Source: Massiliimalia massiliensis
GTDB lineage: Bacteria > Bacillota > Clostridia > Oscillospirales > Ruminococcaceae
Direction: 5' to 3'
NCBI RefSeq assembly: GCF_900155615.1
Contig: NZ_FUHT01000003.1
Coordinates: 868,001 to 932,000 of the forward strand
DNA: 64,000 nucleotides
How positions within the stretch are numbered: position 1 is the first letter of the stretch; every line of letters starts with the position of its first letter. Position numbers and translations under genes: made by a program. Below, piece by piece: positions 29,092-42,187 of the stretch. The notes below the pieces were generated by a model. The model saw nothing but the letters and a program-made list of their open reading frames with translations, made no database searches and was not told where the DNA came from.

Positions 29092-30252
29092 TTAAACATA
29101 GTTGCACACCCTTGCAATCGCGGTTTCCACCATCCCCAGGGCTTCTGCTTTGGACAATTTTCCGTTCGCAATTTCAATCAGCTCTACCAGCAGTTCCTGT
29201 GTCAGCCGGGGCATAGAGCCGCTTTCATAAATGGCCGGACTGGCGTCAAAATCAATATTGTCCTCCATTTTTGCATAGGTCAGTTTATTTCCGGTGATTT
29301 TTATTACCGGCGCAATGGGATTTCCAGTCGGAGTGCCGCGCCCGGTTGTAAATACCACAACCTGAGCGCCGCCTGCGATCATCCCGGCGACGGAGGAAGG
29401 ATCGTTTCCGGGCGTATCCATGACGACAAGCCCGGTTGTTTCGATCTGCTTGGCATAATCGTAAACCGCCATAATCGGGCGGTGTCCGCCCTTGTGGATG
29501 CATCCGAGCGATTTTTCTTCGAGAGTGGTAATTCCGCCCGCCTTGTTTCCTGGAGATGGATTTCCGGCCCGTACCTCTTCTCCGACGAGCTGCAGCGATT
29601 TCTCATAACGGTGGATGATATCAAACAGCCGGTCATGGATTTCCCTGTTTGCCGCCCGTTTTGCCAGGATATGCTCTGCACCGATAAATTCTGTCGTTTC
29701 GCTCAGAATAGAAGCTGCGCCTTCATCCACCAGAAGGTCGCTGAGCTGGCCCACGAGTGGATTCGCGGCAAGCCCGCTTGTTGGGTCAGAGCCGCCGCAT
29801 TCCGTTCCGACAATCAACCGGGACAATGGACAAGGCTGCCTCTGCAGCAGGCCCGCCTGCCTGACCATTTCCTGCGCCAGGCGCACCACCTGCTCAACTG
29901 CTTTGATTGTTCCGCCCGCTTCCTGGATAATCACCTTTTGAAGCGGCTTGCTGGTTCGCTCCCGTACTGCTGCTTCCACCAGATCCATCTGGCAGTTTTC
30001 ACATCCAAGCGACACAATTACCGTACCGTATACATTGGGGTTTGCCGCGTAGCCTGCCATGACATCCATAGTAAGCTGCTGGTCGGCTTTGACCTGGGAG
30101 CAGCCGTTTTGATTGTGGAAGGTCACAGCTCCCTGCACCTGGGAAGCGGCAATTCGTGAAACGTCTGCTGCACAGACGCTTGCCGGCAAAATAAACACAT
30201 GATTACGGATGCCGACCCGTCCGTCCGGCCTGAGATAACCTAAAAACTCCAT
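29092..30252 (-). CDS. UxaA family dehydratase, large (C-terminal) subunit
   Basis: 386 aa matching the altronate dehydratase/galactarate dehydratase C-terminal domain: GYLRPDGRVGIRNHVFILP at the start, NGCSQ, LGCENCQ, VGTECGGSDPTSGLAANP and MDTPGNDPSSVAGMIAGG. These enzymes are metal-dependent sugar-acid dehydratases. The related sulfolactate lyase SuyB has the same fold, so the substrate is uncertain. The partner small subunit is encoded 6 bp upstream. Sugar-acid use would fit the aldolase/dehydratase genes at 35.5-38.2 kb. Confidence 0.88.
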   Translation of the reverse strand: MEFLGYLRPDGRVGIRNHVFILPASVCAADVSRIAASQVQGAVTFHNQNGCSQVKADQQLTMDVMAGYAANPNVYGTVIVSLGCENCQMDLVEAAVRERTSKPLQKVIIQEAGGTIKAVEQVVRLAQEMVRQAGLLQRQPCPLSRLIVGTECGGSDPTSGLAANPLVGQLSDLLVDEGAASILSETTEFIGAEHILAKRAANREIHDRLFDIIHRYEKSLQLVGEEVRAGNPSPGNKAGGITTLEEKSLGCIHKGGHRPIMAVYDYAKQIETTGLVVMDTPGNDPSSVAGMIAGGAQVVVFTTGRGTPTGNPIAPVIKITGNKLTYAKMEDNIDFDASPAIYESGSMPRLTQELLVELIEIANGKLSKAEALGMVETAIARVCNYV

Positions 30253-30258
30253 CCTGTT

Positions 30259-30552
30259 TTACCCCCGATCATCCAGGTTCTCCCGGACGCTGATGACATT
30301 ATGCTCGTGCACGTGCGCCCCGGCTGGGATAAACGCTCCCGCCTCGCCGATATGCTCACCGTATTTGACGATTTTCTCACCCTTTGCGATATCATGTACG
30401 GCAAATTTGTGATAGATAGTGATATTTTCTATCACAGTTATCCTGCAGGGTGTTCCGTCAGGCAGGACATAACAGGCCGCTTCACCCTTTGGGATCGGCT
30501 CAATGGCAACGGCAACATTATCCTCCGGCTCGATAATCATGGCATTGTTCAT
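30259..30552 (-). CDS. UxaA family dehydratase, small SAF-domain subunit
   Basis: 97-aa SAF domain (NVAVAIEPIPKGEAACYVLP, KFAVHDIAKGEKIVKYGEHI and AGAHVHEHNV), the N-terminal domain of altronate dehydratase as a separate protein. It forms the active enzyme with the downstream large subunit. The ATG at 30552 follows GAGGGAGTAATC. A split small/large arrangement also occurs in SuyAB sulfolactate lyase. Confidence 0.88.
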   Translation of the reverse strand: MNNAMIIEPEDNVAVAIEPIPKGEAACYVLPDGTPCRITVIENITIYHKFAVHDIAKGEKIVKYGEHIGEAGAFIPAGAHVHEHNVISVRENLDDRG

Positions 30553-30822: not shown

Positions 30823-31464
30823 TTATAACAACATTCCCTTTTTTCGGAAAACGGCAATCAGCGGCCGTGCGACCAGGGTCGCAATTGCAGCGGCCACAAT
30901 GGCCTCCAGCACGCCGTTGACGGCGATCACACCGCCGATTACCTTTAACAGCGTATCAAAGGCAATTTCCTTTGCAGCCGCGTATTCTTTTCCGAAGAAG
31001 AGATAGATCCCTCCCATTACCAGGATGGTGTTGGTCAGAGATCCGCCGATTCCCGCTGCAATACAGGCAAATATCCTGGTTTTATCCACCTTTTGAATCC
31101 ATTGGAATAACAGTCCCGCGACTACACCGATCAAAATTCGCGGAACAAAGCAGATAATCAGGCTGCAAAAATTCCCCTGTGTATTGCCAAGCTGGTAAAA
31201 CGGGGTGAATACAAACGCAGTGACGCCGCCGTTGATGGTATTGGTAATCAGACTGGTCAGCCCAAAGACAAATCCCAGAAGAGCGCCTACCCTTGGCCCT
31301 AGCAGAATTGCTCCGATAATTACCGGAATATGGATTGTAGTGGCGCGGATGGTCGGAGTCAATGGGATGTAGCCCAAAAACGGAACCATTGCCATCACAA
31401 CCATAATTGCAATCAATAAGGAAACCTGTACTAGCTTGACTGTGGAACGTGTTTGATTTGACAT
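30823..31464 (-). CDS. ECF transporter S component, pantothenate type
   Basis: 213-aa integral membrane protein of six helices, with the conserved PLTPTIRATTIHIPVIIGAILLG-type region and GALLGFVFGLTSLITNTINGG. It resembles PanT, the substrate-binding subunit for pantothenate that works with the shared ECF ATPase and T modules, which are not encoded beside it. The ATG at 31464 follows GGAGGTTTTTAC. Its neighbour is a CoaX-like gene, which strengthens the pantothenate reading. The specificity is inferred. Confidence 0.82.
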   Translation of the reverse strand: MSNQTRSTVKLVQVSLLIAIMVVMAMVPFLGYIPLTPTIRATTIHIPVIIGAILLGPRVGALLGFVFGLTSLITNTINGGVTAFVFTPFYQLGNTQGNFCSLIICFVPRILIGVVAGLLFQWIQKVDKTRIFACIAAGIGGSLTNTILVMGGIYLFFGKEYAAAKEIAFDTLLKVIGGVIAVNGVLEAIVAAAIATLVARPLIAVFRKKGMLL

Positions 31465-31518
31465 GTAAAAACCTCCTGCTGCTGTTCCCAAGAATTGGGA
31501 TACAGTGCTTAATTTCGG

Positions 31519-32286
31519 CTATTGCTTTTTGTTTTTCAGATAGATGTAATACAGCCCCTTTAAAACCAGATGGGGATCAGACACAAACGGCGTATCGCAG
31601 TATGGAATGATATCCTGTGCGTGCTGGCCTGTTGCAAGAAAGACCGGTAATCCGGAAAGCTGTGCCGCAAAGCGGGCGCACATTCCGTCGATCATCGAAG
31701 CGGTACCGTAAATCAATCCGGAACGCATGGAAGCGGCTGTATTGGTCCCGATAACAGCCTGCGGCGGTTCAATAGAAGCCTGCGGAAGCTGTGCCGCACA
31801 TTGATGGAGCGCCTCCAGCGACACCTGTACACCGGCTGCAATAGCAGTACCGCAGAAAACCCCGTTTCCGTCAATCGCGGAAAAGGTAGTCGCTGTCCCC
31901 AATGACACAATAACAGAAGGCGTCTGATATTCCCTTACGGCACAGGCTGCCGCGCAGACAAAGTCTGTTCCCAGGGTAGCGGTACTGACCTTTAGGTTCA
32001 GCCCGGTTTTTACTCCTGCGGAAACTAGCAGAGGCTCAGTATGGAATAACAGACGGCATGCTTGCTTGAGCTTTGGCGTAAGCATTGGGACTACGCTTGC
32101 CAGAATTATCCCGTCAATTTTTATCAATGGGATATGGGACAGGGTCAAAATCTGCTGGAAAGAGGCTGCATATTCAAATTCTGTTGCATTTGGAGATGCG
32201 GCGATTGACGCGGAAAAAGATAGTCTGTCGTCATCAAACACGCCAAATGTGATAATGGTATTTTCGATATTTACTGTTAAAACCAT
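31519..32286 (-). CDS. CoaX-like (type III pantothenate kinase) protein with lost active-site residues
   Basis: 255 aa, normal length and fold for CoaX, aligned along its whole length (VSAGVKTGLNLKV, SLGTATTFSAID, LVLKGLYYIYLKN). Key residues are changed. The DxGNT phosphate loop reads N6-I-E8-N-T, the GADR segment reads GTDF, and the catalytic Asp of DFGTATT is Ser128 (SLGTATT). GGxIxPG reads CGTAIAAG and ATGG reads ATGQ. It is therefore probably not an active kinase. It could be a pseudoenzyme that regulates or senses something linked to the adjacent pantothenate-type transporter. The ATG at 32286 follows GAAAGAGGCAGAATT and gives the family-typical N-terminus. Confidence 0.85.
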   Translation of the reverse strand: MVLTVNIENTIITFGVFDDDRLSFSASIAASPNATEFEYAASFQQILTLSHIPLIKIDGIILASVVPMLTPKLKQACRLLFHTEPLLVSAGVKTGLNLKVSTATLGTDFVCAAACAVREYQTPSVIVSLGTATTFSAIDGNGVFCGTAIAAGVQVSLEALHQCAAQLPQASIEPPQAVIGTNTAASMRSGLIYGTASMIDGMCARFAAQLSGLPVFLATGQHAQDIIPYCDTPFVSDPHLVLKGLYYIYLKNKKQ

Positions 32287-32416
32287 AATTCTGCCTCTTT
32301 CCGATGGAATACAAAAAAACAATTGCCATCTTTTATTATAAACAATCCACCTTCCTTTGACAAGTATTTCCGCCTTAGTTTGCACATATAATGCAAGGGA
32401 AAGGATGGGGTATAGA

Positions 32417-34718: not shown

Positions 34719-34744
34719 GCGGAGCAGGTTTATACCTGCTCCGC
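34719..34744. terminator. terminator shared by pyridoxamine kinase and cbiK genes
   Basis: GCGGAGCAGGT / ACCTGCTCCGC (11 bp) with a TTAT loop and a CTCTTTT tail on the plus strand. The last codons and stop of cbiK lie within it. Confidence 0.75.
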
Positions 34745-35509
34745 CTCTTTTAAATGCCGGATAAATATTTCCCCGATTTGTTCCAGTTCACCCAGCCCGG
34801 TTAAAATCGGGAGGGTATGGAATCCGCTTGCCTCTAGGATTGACTTCCAGGAGTCAGGCGATTCGCCGGCCAGATCGTTTTTTGCATGGTCTCCGGCTAC
34901 AATCATAAACGGCATCAGATAGACGGTTTTAATTCCGCGTGTTTTTAGACGGGAAAGGATATATTCAATACCCGGAAAGCCGTCCACCGTTCCCACATAG
35001 ACATGCTCCTCGCCAAGAAAACGAAAGGTATTTTCAAGCTGACAGTAAGCAGCGTTCGCGAAATGGGGCGTCCCGTGTCCCATCAGCACGATTGCTTCTT
35101 CATCTGTCCGAAACGGAATCATAGAACAGATAGCCTGTGCTGATTCCTCGTAGTCAGCCTGTGCTGACAGCAATGGCCGGCTGATTTGGAAGGTTGAAAA
35201 GGACTCGCGATAGGTTAGCAGCTCCGCCGCCATCTTTTCATATTCAATGCCGGGGATAACGTGCAATGTCTGGCAGAGAACGGATTCATAGCCGTTCTGC
35301 ACCAGCTCATCCATCACCTCTGCCGGGGTCTTAATGACAAGATTTTGCTCTTCCGCAAGCTTACGGATTACAATCCGGGAGGTGAAAGCGCGGAAGATAT
35401 CCACATTTTCCATTGAGGCGGAAATGTTTTTTTCCAGATGTTCAATCGCACCTAGTGCGTCTAAATGGGCAGTGCCAAAGCTGATAAAAACCAATGCGCG
35501 TTTTGTCAT
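34730..35509 (-). CDS. cbiK: sirohydrochlorin cobaltochelatase CbiK
   Basis: 259-aa class II chelatase that inserts cobalt into sirohydrochlorin at the start of the anaerobic cobalamin route. Metal and catalytic residues by comparison with Salmonella CbiK: Glu89 ([10 protein letters not shown]), His145 (MGHGTPH) and His208 (AGDHAKNDL), all present. It lies away from the main cob operon, as the last gene of a dapA-like/ilvD-like operon, and its ATG overlaps the ilvD-like stop (ATGA). AAGGGAG precedes it. A signal peptide, seen in periplasmic forms, is absent, so it is cytoplasmic. Confidence 0.93.
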
Positions 35510-39470: not shown

Positions 39471-40322
39471 TTATTTCAGAAGGGAACGAATCGTCTTCCG
39501 GGCCTTGGAGATGGTTGCTGCCGTGATATCGACATCGAGATGATCCTTTTTTGCAAGAATTTCCATGAGATGGGCCATCCTGGGGAGACGGAGATTCACC
39601 TCCCGGAGTCTTTCCTTTTGCCGAAACAGCTCCTCCGGCGTACCATGCAGTGCGACTTTTCCATGATCGAGCACATAGGCAAAGTCGCAGTAGAGTGGGA
39701 CAAGGTCAATGTCGTGGGTAGCAAGCAGGAAGGTGATCTCCTGTTCTTCCCGTATTTTCAGCATAAGCTTTAGAATCTCGCTCACACCGGAAGGGTCTAA
39801 GCCGGCAGTCGGCTCGTCAAGGATAATGACGTCCGGTTTCATTACCAGCACTCCCGCAATTGCCGCCCGCTTTTTCTGTCCAAAGCTGAGCGCGTGGGTC
39901 GGCGCGTGCAAAAATTCGCGGATACCGGTCTGTTCTACCGCTTCGTCAACACGCCGTTTCATTTCCTGCTCCGGCAGTTTTAGATTCACTGCGCCATAGG
40001 AAACATCCTTTAAAACACTGGCGGAAAAAAGCTGGTCATTCGGATCCTGAAAGACGATCCCGACCCGCCTGCGCAGCGCGGCGATTCCTTTTTTATCATA
40101 AATCACAGGCTGTCCGTCAAAGAACACCTCTCCGGAATCCGGGGTCAGCACGCCGTTCAGATTCAAAAAATAGGTTGATTTACCGGCGCCGTTCCCACCC
40201 AGAAAAGCCGTAATTTTTCCTTTTGGGATCACTGTATTAATATTGTCCAGGGAGTTCGACTCTCCGTCATAGGAGTAACAAAGCTTCTTTGTTTCAATAA
40301 TAGGCTGAAAATTTGTGTTCAT
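39471..40322 (-). CDS. cbiO: cobalt ECF transporter ATP-binding protein CbiO
   Basis: 283-aa ABC ATPase. It has Walker A GGNGAGKST, Q-loop FQDPNDQLF, signature SFGQKKRAAIAG, Walker B VIILDEPTAGLD and an H-loop His (ATHDID). It powers the CbiMNQO cobalt importer. The ATG at 40322 follows AGGAGGAAATTAGG and overlaps the cbiQ stop (ATGA). It is the last gene of the minus-strand cbiMNQO operon, under control of the riboswitch at about 42.4-42.5 kb. The C-terminal 40 residues (MAHLMEILAKKDHLDVDITA) are unremarkable. Confidence 0.95.
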   Translation of the reverse strand: MNTNFQPIIETKKLCYSYDGESNSLDNINTVIPKGKITAFLGGNGAGKSTYFLNLNGVLTPDSGEVFFDGQPVIYDKKGIAALRRRVGIVFQDPNDQLFSASVLKDVSYGAVNLKLPEQEMKRRVDEAVEQTGIREFLHAPTHALSFGQKKRAAIAGVLVMKPDVIILDEPTAGLDPSGVSEILKLMLKIREEQEITFLLATHDIDLVPLYCDFAYVLDHGKVALHGTPEELFRQKERLREVNLRLPRMAHLMEILAKKDHLDVDITAATISKARKTIRSLLK

Positions 40323-41110
40323 CCTAATTTCCTCCTGAGCATAAATTCTGCAAGCGCCGCTGCGCCCAGAACCAGGCAGAACGCCAGGGTATAGCCATAC
40401 CATTTTTTGGAGGGCGCGTAGGTCTCCTGTAAGGCGTTTAGATCCCCTTCAAAGCCACGGGCTTCCAGTGCGGCACAGATCCGGCCGCAGCGGGAATAGG
40501 CGCGGAAGAACAGGGTACCGATCAGTGTTCCGGCCGACTGGATCGATTGCCTGAGGCCCCGGTATCCCAGCCTTGCCTCCTGTGCAGTTTTCATCCGAGC
40601 GGCTTCCTCCCAGATAACAAAAATATACCGGTAGATCAGTTCCATCAGCGAAACCAGGACGCCCGGCAGGGGGCTGCCGCGCAGACATTGGAATAGACTG
40701 GTCATCGGGGTGTTGAAGGAAAGGAAATACATACAGCAAACCGCACCGAGCGCAGTGGAACAAAGCCGGATTCCCTGAAACAGGGAATCCGGGCTGATGC
40801 CATATTGGTATTGTCCGATGGTAACACCGGCAAGCAAGGACTCTCCCGCCGGATAGCGGCTGATAAAAATTGTAAGCGTGCCAATCAGGAGAAACCCACA
40901 GGGAATCAGCAGGAAATGCAAATACCGTTTTAGGGTTAGCCCGGTCAACATGCAGGTTAACGCCGCCATAGCGAACAGGGTGATCAGCCCGGCCGCAATG
41001 CTCCTTGTCCCGATGCAGAGACAGAGCGGGAAAAGGGAAAAGCAGAGCTTTCCCTTGGGATCAAGCCGCGCAATCCGGGAGGAATAAGCAATTTTATCAA
41101 TCTGATTCAT
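40319..41110 (-). CDS. cbiQ: cobalt ECF transporter transmembrane protein CbiQ
   Basis: 263-aa membrane coupling subunit with about five helices. The conserved cytoplasmic motifs that contact CbiO are ARMKTAQEARLGY and the RAYSRCGRICAALEARGF region (A-R-G type). The ATG at 41110 follows GGAAGGGCACC; a longer frame back to 41179 would run through cbiN. It lies between cbiN and cbiO, overlapping both ends slightly, as in other cbiMNQO operons. Confidence 0.93.
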   Translation of the reverse strand: MNQIDKIAYSSRIARLDPKGKLCFSLFPLCLCIGTRSIAAGLITLFAMAALTCMLTGLTLKRYLHFLLIPCGFLLIGTLTIFISRYPAGESLLAGVTIGQYQYGISPDSLFQGIRLCSTALGAVCCMYFLSFNTPMTSLFQCLRGSPLPGVLVSLMELIYRYIFVIWEEAARMKTAQEARLGYRGLRQSIQSAGTLIGTLFFRAYSRCGRICAALEARGFEGDLNALQETYAPSKKWYGYTLAFCLVLGAAALAEFMLRRKLG

Positions 41111-41408
41111 GGTGCCCTTCCGCCGTCTTTTTATCTTTTGATTTTGCCGTAATCCGTCCCAGAACAAAACCGACGACACCGGCGCCGATTGCTGCCTGGA
41201 GCGCGAACAGCAGGGATTCTATTTCACCGCTTGCCGGTTCCAGGAGCGTTTCAAACCACGGCTTGTAATCCGGATCGATTTCTGTGATTGCCGCTTCGGC
41301 TTCTCCGTCCGCTCCGCCAAATTCGGCGTTTGGGAGCACCAGCAATGGGATAACCGTAATAATGACGACGGCAAGGATCAAAATTAAATTTTTCTTCCAA
41401 AGTTTCAT
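41097..41408 (-). CDS. cbiN: cobalt transport protein CbiN
   Basis: 103 aa. Two membrane helices (NLILILAVVIITVIPLLVLP and LQAAIGAGVVGFVLGRI) flank a loop with the conserved EIDPDYKPWFETLLEPASGE sequence typical of CbiN. It activates CbiM for cobalt loading. It overlaps the cbiQ start by 14 bp and lies 32 bp after cbiM. Confidence 0.95.
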   Translation of the reverse strand: MKLWKKNLILILAVVIITVIPLLVLPNAEFGGADGEAEAAITEIDPDYKPWFETLLEPASGEIESLLFALQAAIGAGVVGFVLGRITAKSKDKKTAEGHHESD

Positions 41409-41440
41409 GATAGCTGACTTCCTTTCTATGTAACAGCAGA

Positions 41441-42187
41441 TTATAAAGCGTGGAGAGATTCCAGCTCTTTGCGGCTGTACTTGACCAGAACATTGTAGAT
41501 CACTACGGTCAAAAGTCCTTCGCAGATTGCGAGCGGAATTTGTGTAACCGCAAAAATGCCGGCAAATTTAGAGAAGGATGCGAGGAAGCCGCCGGTCGGA
41601 TCGGGATGATCCAAAGCGAGCTGAACAGAGGTGACAAGATAGGTGAACAAATCTCCCAGCGCAGCGGCAAAAAACACCGCGATTCCGGATGACACACCGA
41701 GCTTCTTACATAGCTTGAACACACCGAATGAAACAAGCGGCCCCGCGATCGCCATGGAGAAGGTATTGGCTCCCAGCGTACTCAATCCCCCATGCGCGAG
41801 TAAAAGCGCCTGGAAGAGCAGAATAATAACGCCAATTACAGACATGGCAGACGGCCCGAACAGGACAGCGCCAAGCCCTACCCCGGTCGGATGGGAGCAG
41901 CTCCCGCTGACAGAAGGGATTTTTAATGCTGAAAGGACAAACGCAAACGCGCCGCACATCGCGAGCAGCACCAGGTTTTTGGAGGATTGCTTAACCGATT
42001 TGGAGATAGAGAAAAAGCCCCATACGACAAACGGAACACAGACAACGCCCCAGGCTATCGCCCAGCCGGGGTTGAGATATCCCTCCATAATATGCATGGC
42101 GGATGCCTGCGGAGAGAAAAAGAGGGCCGCGCATAGTACGGCCGAGGCGGAAACAAGGATTTTTTGCAGTTTTGTTGTTTTCATCAT
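41441..42187 (-). CDS. cbiM: cobalt ECF transporter substrate-specific subunit CbiM
   Basis: 248 aa. A signal sequence ([21 protein letters not shown]) ends just before [12 protein letters not shown]; in CbiM the processed N-terminal Met-His binds Co(II). Several membrane helices follow, with the conserved [19 protein letters not shown] and [18 protein letters not shown] motifs. It is the first gene of the cobalt uptake operon. Upstream on the same strand are a terminator hairpin and a cobalamin riboswitch, so uptake should fall when cobalamin is plentiful. Start at 42187 (or the Met one codon later) after AAAGGGG. Confidence 0.95.

Follow-up and report, generated by a model that had tools for sequence, protein, structure and literature searches.

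In Mycobacterium tuberculosis, CoaX is described in the available text of PMC12288473 as a trimer of dimers that does not function as a dimeric kinase and that binds Dop. Without pantothenate it enhances depupylation of PanB, and pantothenate inhibits this effect (PMC12288473). The protein is reported to be inactive as a kinase, with a second pantothenate kinase (PanK) in the genome (available part of PMC7770189). In apicomplexans, PanK1 and PanK2 are heteromeric, and a paralogue that looks non-functional has an essential role (PMC8366970, text available in part); the same source treats the retention of several PanKs, some apparently non-functional, as an open question. High-affinity pantothenate uptake by PanU is described for Bacillus subtilis in the accessible part of PMC11487621. 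Two further papers (PMC6593275; PMC12570885) were consulted in part. A degenerate CoaX linked to a pantothenate transporter gene was not described in the openly licensed literature searched.

The window analysed here is a stretch of 64,000 nucleotides from Massiliimalia massiliensis (G000:C2:868001-932000), whose genome comprises 2.84 Mb and is 99.75% complete. It contains a CoaX-like gene, coaX2, and directly downstream on the same strand, 54 bp past the coaX2 stop, a panT gene. The features of this locus are as follows.

31519 to 32286, minus strand: degenerate CoaX2 (pseudo type III pantothenate kinase), ATG at 32286, TAG ending at 31519, 255 aa.
32294 to 32299, minus strand: Shine-Dalgarno-like AAGAGG, 7 nt 5' of the coaX2 ATG at 32286, by direct reading.
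30823 to 31464, minus strand: ECF S component of PanT type, starting with ATG at 31464; in the ORF list, its frame begins with TTG at 31491.
31472 to 31477, minus strand: panT Shine-Dalgarno AGGAGG, inside the gap between coaX2 and panT, by direct reading.

CoaX2 matched PF03309 (Pan_kinase) over its full length with 172 bits (Pfam cut-off 24.7). Its membership of this family was assigned by homology and by an ASKHA fold resembling solved type III pantothenate kinases (PanK-III). The protein fell below the NCBIfam equivalog cut-off for "type III pantothenate kinase" (best 204.3 vs 233, NF009855), and the only NCBIfam cut-off that it passed was that of the broad subfamily TIGR00671 (157.1 vs 58.2). 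By sequence, the nearest solved structure was B. anthracis CoaX (E 9.2e-44). An AlphaFold model built from 69 sequences had a pLDDT of 96.2 and was matched to solved PanK-III structures with Z of 30-33.5 (for 2h3g: Z 33.5, rmsd 1.3, 246 residues). Fold and length are therefore kept in full, as an earlier reading of the DNA had proposed from the sequence only. That reading had also postulated selection on the protein. Compared with M. timonensis, CoaX2 had dN 0.24 and dN/dS ~0.06, a ratio that is only rough because dS is near saturation, and which indicates purifying selection with strong constraint. For the same genome pair, the neighbouring S component gave a dN/dS of 0.08, and CoaX1 (see below) a dN of 0.14, below the 0.24 of CoaX2, with dS saturated. 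Judged by these values, CoaX2 is a constrained protein and not a decaying one.

Active-site residues were numbered according to the T. maritima PanK-III sequence. The motifs quoted in the sequence-only reading (VNIENT, GTDF, SLGTATT and GTAIAAG) were confirmed. Among the residues expected of an active type III pantothenate kinase, the P-loop Asp D6 is replaced by N, Gly8 by E and the DxGT Asp D125 by S (S128 of the protein), and the third loop reads TGQ for TGG. The GADR Asp D105 is present (D108 of the protein, in GTDF), and the GTATT Thr residues are still in place. We take D105 to be the catalytic base at pantothenate, D125 the monovalent cation site, and D6 together with the glycine loops to serve ATP and metal handling. 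The earlier claim of a near-complete replacement of the catalytic residues thus holds for D6, Gly8 and D125 and is too strong as a whole, because D105 is retained. The change from GADR to GTDF had also been counted as a sign of inactivity. Loss of Arg106 was rejected as such a mark, since it is also missing from most intact CoaX2 proteins for which no other PanK was found in the genome: in these 85 proteins, residue 106 is L in 53, R in 12, M in 10, Q in 3, I in 3, F in 3 and V in 1. The diagnostic change is the loss of D6, Gly8 and D125. M. timonensis and two other genomes of the genus likewise lack D6 and D125, and sequencing error was therefore ruled out as the cause.

The panT product matched PF12822 (ECF_trnsprt) with 88.9 bits, and its only sequence matches in the PDB were 4rfs_S (9.5e-19) and 6zg3_C (8.9e-16), both of which we take to be PanT proteins. 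By this domain and the match to solved PanT chains, the neighbour is a PanT-type S component, in agreement with the pantothenate-type ECF S component named from the sequence. coaX2 and panT form one apparent operon, presumably read as a single transcript. An EcfT/CbiQ match in the window was considered as a PanT module and rejected, as it adjoins CbiM- and CbiO-like ORFs and was taken as part of a cobalt transporter. These CbiO-, CbiQ- and CbiM-like ORFs lie at 39471-42187 of the window (assigned by eye except CbiQ), with CbiK nearby at 34730-35509. Downstream of panT, at 29092-30552 on the minus strand, a split altronate/galactarate dehydratase is encoded by separate SAF-domain and GD_AH ORFs.

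Elsewhere in the genome, and not near an S component, an intact CoaX1 is encoded at G000:C2:74458-75210, with the motifs VDIGNT, GADRL and VDFGTATN and ~33% identity to CoaX2. In the same genome, no CoaA was found above cut-off, CoaW was not recognised and PanC was not found; CoaBC was full (448 bits), and the one close PanT-like S component was that adjoining coaX2. The search for an intact coaX or coaA, which had been proposed as a check, thus returned CoaX1 and no CoaA above cut-off. According to the sequence-only reading, CoaX2 would have to be the active enzyme if the genome had no other pantothenate kinase; this situation does not apply, since CoaX1 is intact. As CoaX1, CoaBC and a PanT-like gene are present and PanC was not found, import of pantothenate and its phosphorylation by CoaX1 would be expected. 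The absence of PanC indirectly supports the predicted transport of pantothenate by the neighbouring S component.

The CoaX sample was drawn from 61 relatives and 158 family genomes. A match was present in 172 genomes, of which 166 were taken, giving 220 rows. Six of the 172 genomes with a match (G082, G129, G137, G156, G186 and G190) were left out before counting. In G028, a weak second match to PF03309 was likewise left out of tree and counts, as was the 3' fragment of the frameshifted CoaX2 of G016. Another 80 loci were used for the motif list and kept out of the statistics. In the tree of 220 rows, CoaX1 formed a clade of 34 rows (support 100) with all three Asp residues in 34/34 and linkage to an S component in 0/34. 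The remaining 186 rows are referred to as CoaX2. Intact CoaX2 was linked to an S component in 98/137 rows, CoaX2 missing at least one Asp, though never D6 and D125 together, in 11/20, and CoaX2 without D6 and D125 in 21/29. For four of the eight unlinked rows in the last group, less than 900 bp was examined on one side. Because no PanK other than an intact CoaX2 was found in 85 genomes, CoaX2 as a group probably has kinase activity and is coupled to uptake. Three genomes (G007, G014 and G016) have a PanT-like protein and no panT-linked CoaX2; CoaX2 is therefore not required for transport. The CoaX2 of G016 (L066) is split over two overlapping frames by a frameshift, in a genome that also encodes an intact CoaX1, and is a real pseudogene.

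Within CoaX2, the window protein belongs to a clade of 21 members (support 74); the inner nodes leading toward it have supports of 99, 96, 11, 96 and 92. An S component (panT) adjoins 20 of the 21 members, and another intact PanK is present for 20 of 21, G010 being the exception to both. Seven members are intact and 14 are degenerate, and 13 of the 14 adjoin an S component. A phylogeny had been proposed to show whether the degenerate form is a clade and always adjoins the transporter; the form falls within a clade beside a PanT-type S component in 20/21 cases. D6 was lost in 14 members, D125 in 13 and D105 in none. Positions that are conserved in other intact CoaX2 and eroded in the 14 degenerate members include D6, G8, N11, G127, T128 and G216, with Gly8 changed to Asp or Glu in nine of them. 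Fixed or nearly fixed positions include G103, D105, T179, TGL, L163-P164 and framework glycines. From this distribution, the ATP/cation side appears lost and the pantothenate side kept; the conserved scaffold residues could be structural and not ligand-binding.

Other departures from the canonical motifs were also seen. L013, L028, L184, L186 and L190, from five genera, share a signature in which the P-loop reads HxDN(R/Q/S) and GTATT is replaced by (A/T)(G/A)A(T/V)T; this suggests a new fixed function and not drift. A different degenerate type (L035, L040, L054, L198, L216, L218, L221 and L222) carries N at position 6, E or in one case D at position 105, and DTA(L/I)(S/T) where GTATT would be expected; it is panT-linked in 3/8 cases. 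One genome (G161) carries three CoaX copies (L194, L213 and L217), two of which, one degenerate and one intact, lie beside their own S components. Tandem coaX2 genes with one copy adjoining an S component were found at L038 (G033), L234 (G141) and L237 (G154). In each pair, D105 alone is replaced in exactly one copy (by G, N and N, respectively), with D6 and D125 kept, the reverse of the window pattern; these pairs are candidates for a possible heterodimeric PanK.

Loss of the Asp residues was compared with kinase redundancy. A CoaX without D6 and D125 was present in 28/66 genomes with multiple PanKs vs 1/100 genomes with a single PanK, the exception being an 83%-complete MAG (G010) in which a PanT-like gene was also not found. 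Restricted to genomes at least 90% complete, the counts were 27/62 and 0/97. Fisher tests, which ignore shared ancestry, gave p values of 1e-12 to 1e-13. On the tree, the state with both Asp lost corresponds to ~9 parsimony changes. Independent tree pairs for this state mostly pointed in the predicted direction, but were underpowered (5 pairs, median p 0.5); for loss of any Asp, modest support was obtained (9 pairs, median p 0.031). At least one Asp was lost in 17/24 CoaX2 rows alongside CoaX1 vs 32/162 rows without CoaX1. CoaW matches in 21 genomes were below the TIGR00555 cut-off; nine of the 21 were rechecked, and 9/9 were above the Pfam Fumble cut-off. When five of these nine were also compared with NCBIfam, the best match was type II pantothenate kinase in 5/5, above its cut-off in 1/5.

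Six rows combined a lost Asp with no other PanK (G004, G070, G086, G136, G148 and G010). These single-CoaX genomes were examined as counter-examples and set aside: CoaBC was not above cut-off in three, and one is the incomplete MAG. In G004 (L020), G070 (L297) and G086 (L294), the sole CoaX has D125 changed to S and CoaBC was not above cut-off, so that phosphorylation of pantothenate may be unneeded there. These organisms perhaps depend on CoA precursors from further along the pathway, and their CoaX may have been repurposed or come under relaxed constraint. G136 (L228) and G148 (L227) have a divergent CoaX (local-profile scores of 193 and 202 bits) that has lost D6 and adjoins split, divergent CoaC/CoaB ORFs.

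A pantothenate-binding regulator is the reading of the window protein that best fits the apparent loss of ATP handling and the apparent retention of the vitamin pocket, together with the panT linkage and continued selection. We assign a probability of roughly 55% to CoaX2 being a catalytically dead, pantothenate-binding paralogue of PanK-III, its likeliest role being that of a cytosolic, pantothenate-responsive regulator of supply. Loss of kinase activity, pantothenate binding and the regulatory target are each inferred. The role of pantothenate sensor or regulator suggested in the sequence-only reading is thus supported in part: it fits the loss of the ATP/cation side and retention of the pantothenate side, with M. 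tuberculosis CoaX as precedent. In this role, the ligand state of CoaX2 would report internal pantothenate, and the protein would act on uptake via the neighbouring ECF-PanT; the CoaX1 kinase would be a less likely target. Since PanC was not found in this organism, control would fall on import. More tentatively, pseudo-CoaX2 might act as a pantothenate-gated valve that, on binding pantothenate inside the cell, would directly inhibit or release ECF-PanT, a possible mechanism to which we give clearly less weight. Its logic would be comparable to that of GlnK on AmtB.

Other explanations were weighed against the regulator. CoaX2 might serve a heteromeric pantothenate kinase as its regulatory or structural subunit, with the working active site supplied by a paired CoaX1. 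Coexistence with another intact PanK in 20/21 clade members would agree with this, as would the PanK1/PanK2 precedent of P. falciparum and T. gondii (PMC8366970, available in part) and the tandem pairs of G033, G141 and G154, in which exactly one copy is without D105. However, CoaX1 and CoaX2 of the window organism are only distantly alike (~33% identical), the linkage is to panT and is absent from all 34 CoaX1 rows, and the degenerate copies of G024, G045, G049, G126 and G168 coexist only with type II CoaW. A heteromeric kinase is thus considered unlikely. Slightly less probable still is that CoaX2 remains a kinase, either through relocated acids (E8 or D8 replacing D6) or on another substrate. 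An acid at position 8 occurs in 12/40 rows without D6 vs 2/180 rows with D6, D105 and the Thr residues of GTATT remain in the window protein, and the sole CoaX of G004, G070 and G086 (D125 to S), without CoaBC above cut-off, indicates that a change of substrate may occur in the family. Against this, all 34 CoaX1 rows have Asp at positions 6 and 125, no single-PanK genome at least 90% complete (0/97) has lost both, and an acid in the P-loop would presumably repel the phosphates of ATP. The window genome itself has CoaBC, and pantothenate is therefore the expected route.

The doubts are of similar size for a passive store or delivery protein that keeps imported pantothenate near PanT and takes no part in signalling. 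The same anatomy (a retained vitamin side, a lost ATP side and panT as neighbour) would suit such a protein as well as a regulator, but a stoichiometric sink requires high abundance, and the precedent of M. tuberculosis CoaX is regulatory. The reading that can be discounted most readily, and that was already disfavoured, is a decaying remnant of a redundant kinase, present only through recency. Loss of Asp does track PanK redundancy, and G016 has a frameshifted CoaX2 plus an intact CoaX1. The window gene, in contrast, has an open frame with a dN/dS of ~0.06 (dS near saturation) and a full-length predicted fold, and its degeneration is common to 14 clade members, of which 13 adjoin an S component. 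A pantothenate-responsive regulator is thus retained as the preferred reading of CoaX2.

The relatives form a natural gradation, from intact CoaX2 as sole kinase through intact CoaX2 together with CoaX1 to CoaX2 without the ATP-side residues that is still panT-linked. The sensor hypothesis is therefore directly testable in a few cloneable proteins. If it is true, uptake of vitamin B5 would be under feedback control in gut anaerobes unable to synthesise it, and a CoaX-based pantothenate sensor would have had a second, independent origin. Were the valve also true, an ECF transporter would have a cytosolic feedback regulator derived from a former kinase, which would have originated more than once in Clostridia, convergently with the M. 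tuberculosis CoaX sensor. For annotation, the presence of a CoaX gene should not be equated with the presence of a pantothenate kinase.

Canonical PanK-III (B. anthracis 2h3g, Z 33.5; T. maritima 3bex/3bf1/3bf3, Z ~30) resembles the window CoaX2 in fold and length. These enzymes and the CoaX1 of the same genome share D105 and the scaffold glycines with it, whereas D6, G8 and D125 are replaced in CoaX2 and TGG is changed to TGQ; CoaX2 is panT-linked and CoaX1 is not (0/34). Intact CoaX2 of related Clostridia has the same S-component gene order (98/137) and mostly a non-Arg residue 106, but keeps the three Asp residues and is the sole PanK in 85 sampled genomes. The apicomplexan PanK1/PanK2 are type II PanKs, whereas CoaX2 is of the type III family. 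On the transport side, the window PanT resembles the ECF PanT structures in matching the solved S chains 4rfs_S and 6zg3_C; for ECF PanT and B. subtilis PanU, no cytosolic CoaX-type regulator is described in the available parts of the literature examined. M. tuberculosis CoaX (PDB 9b78, 9b79, 9cku) superposes on the window model with Z 31.7 and rmsd 1.6 over 250 residues. Both proteins combine degenerate nucleotide loops (in M. tuberculosis G8 to R, GTATT altered, TGG to TGH) with a retained D105. In contrast to the window protein, M. tuberculosis CoaX keeps D6 and D125 and acts with Dop on the biosynthetic PanB, whereas the window gene adjoins a transporter gene in a genome in which PanC was not found. 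M. tuberculosis CoaX is of a different lineage, and the likeness would therefore be convergent. A non-kinase, pantothenate-responsive CoaX is already known; what is new here is a transporter-linked pseudo-PanK variant.
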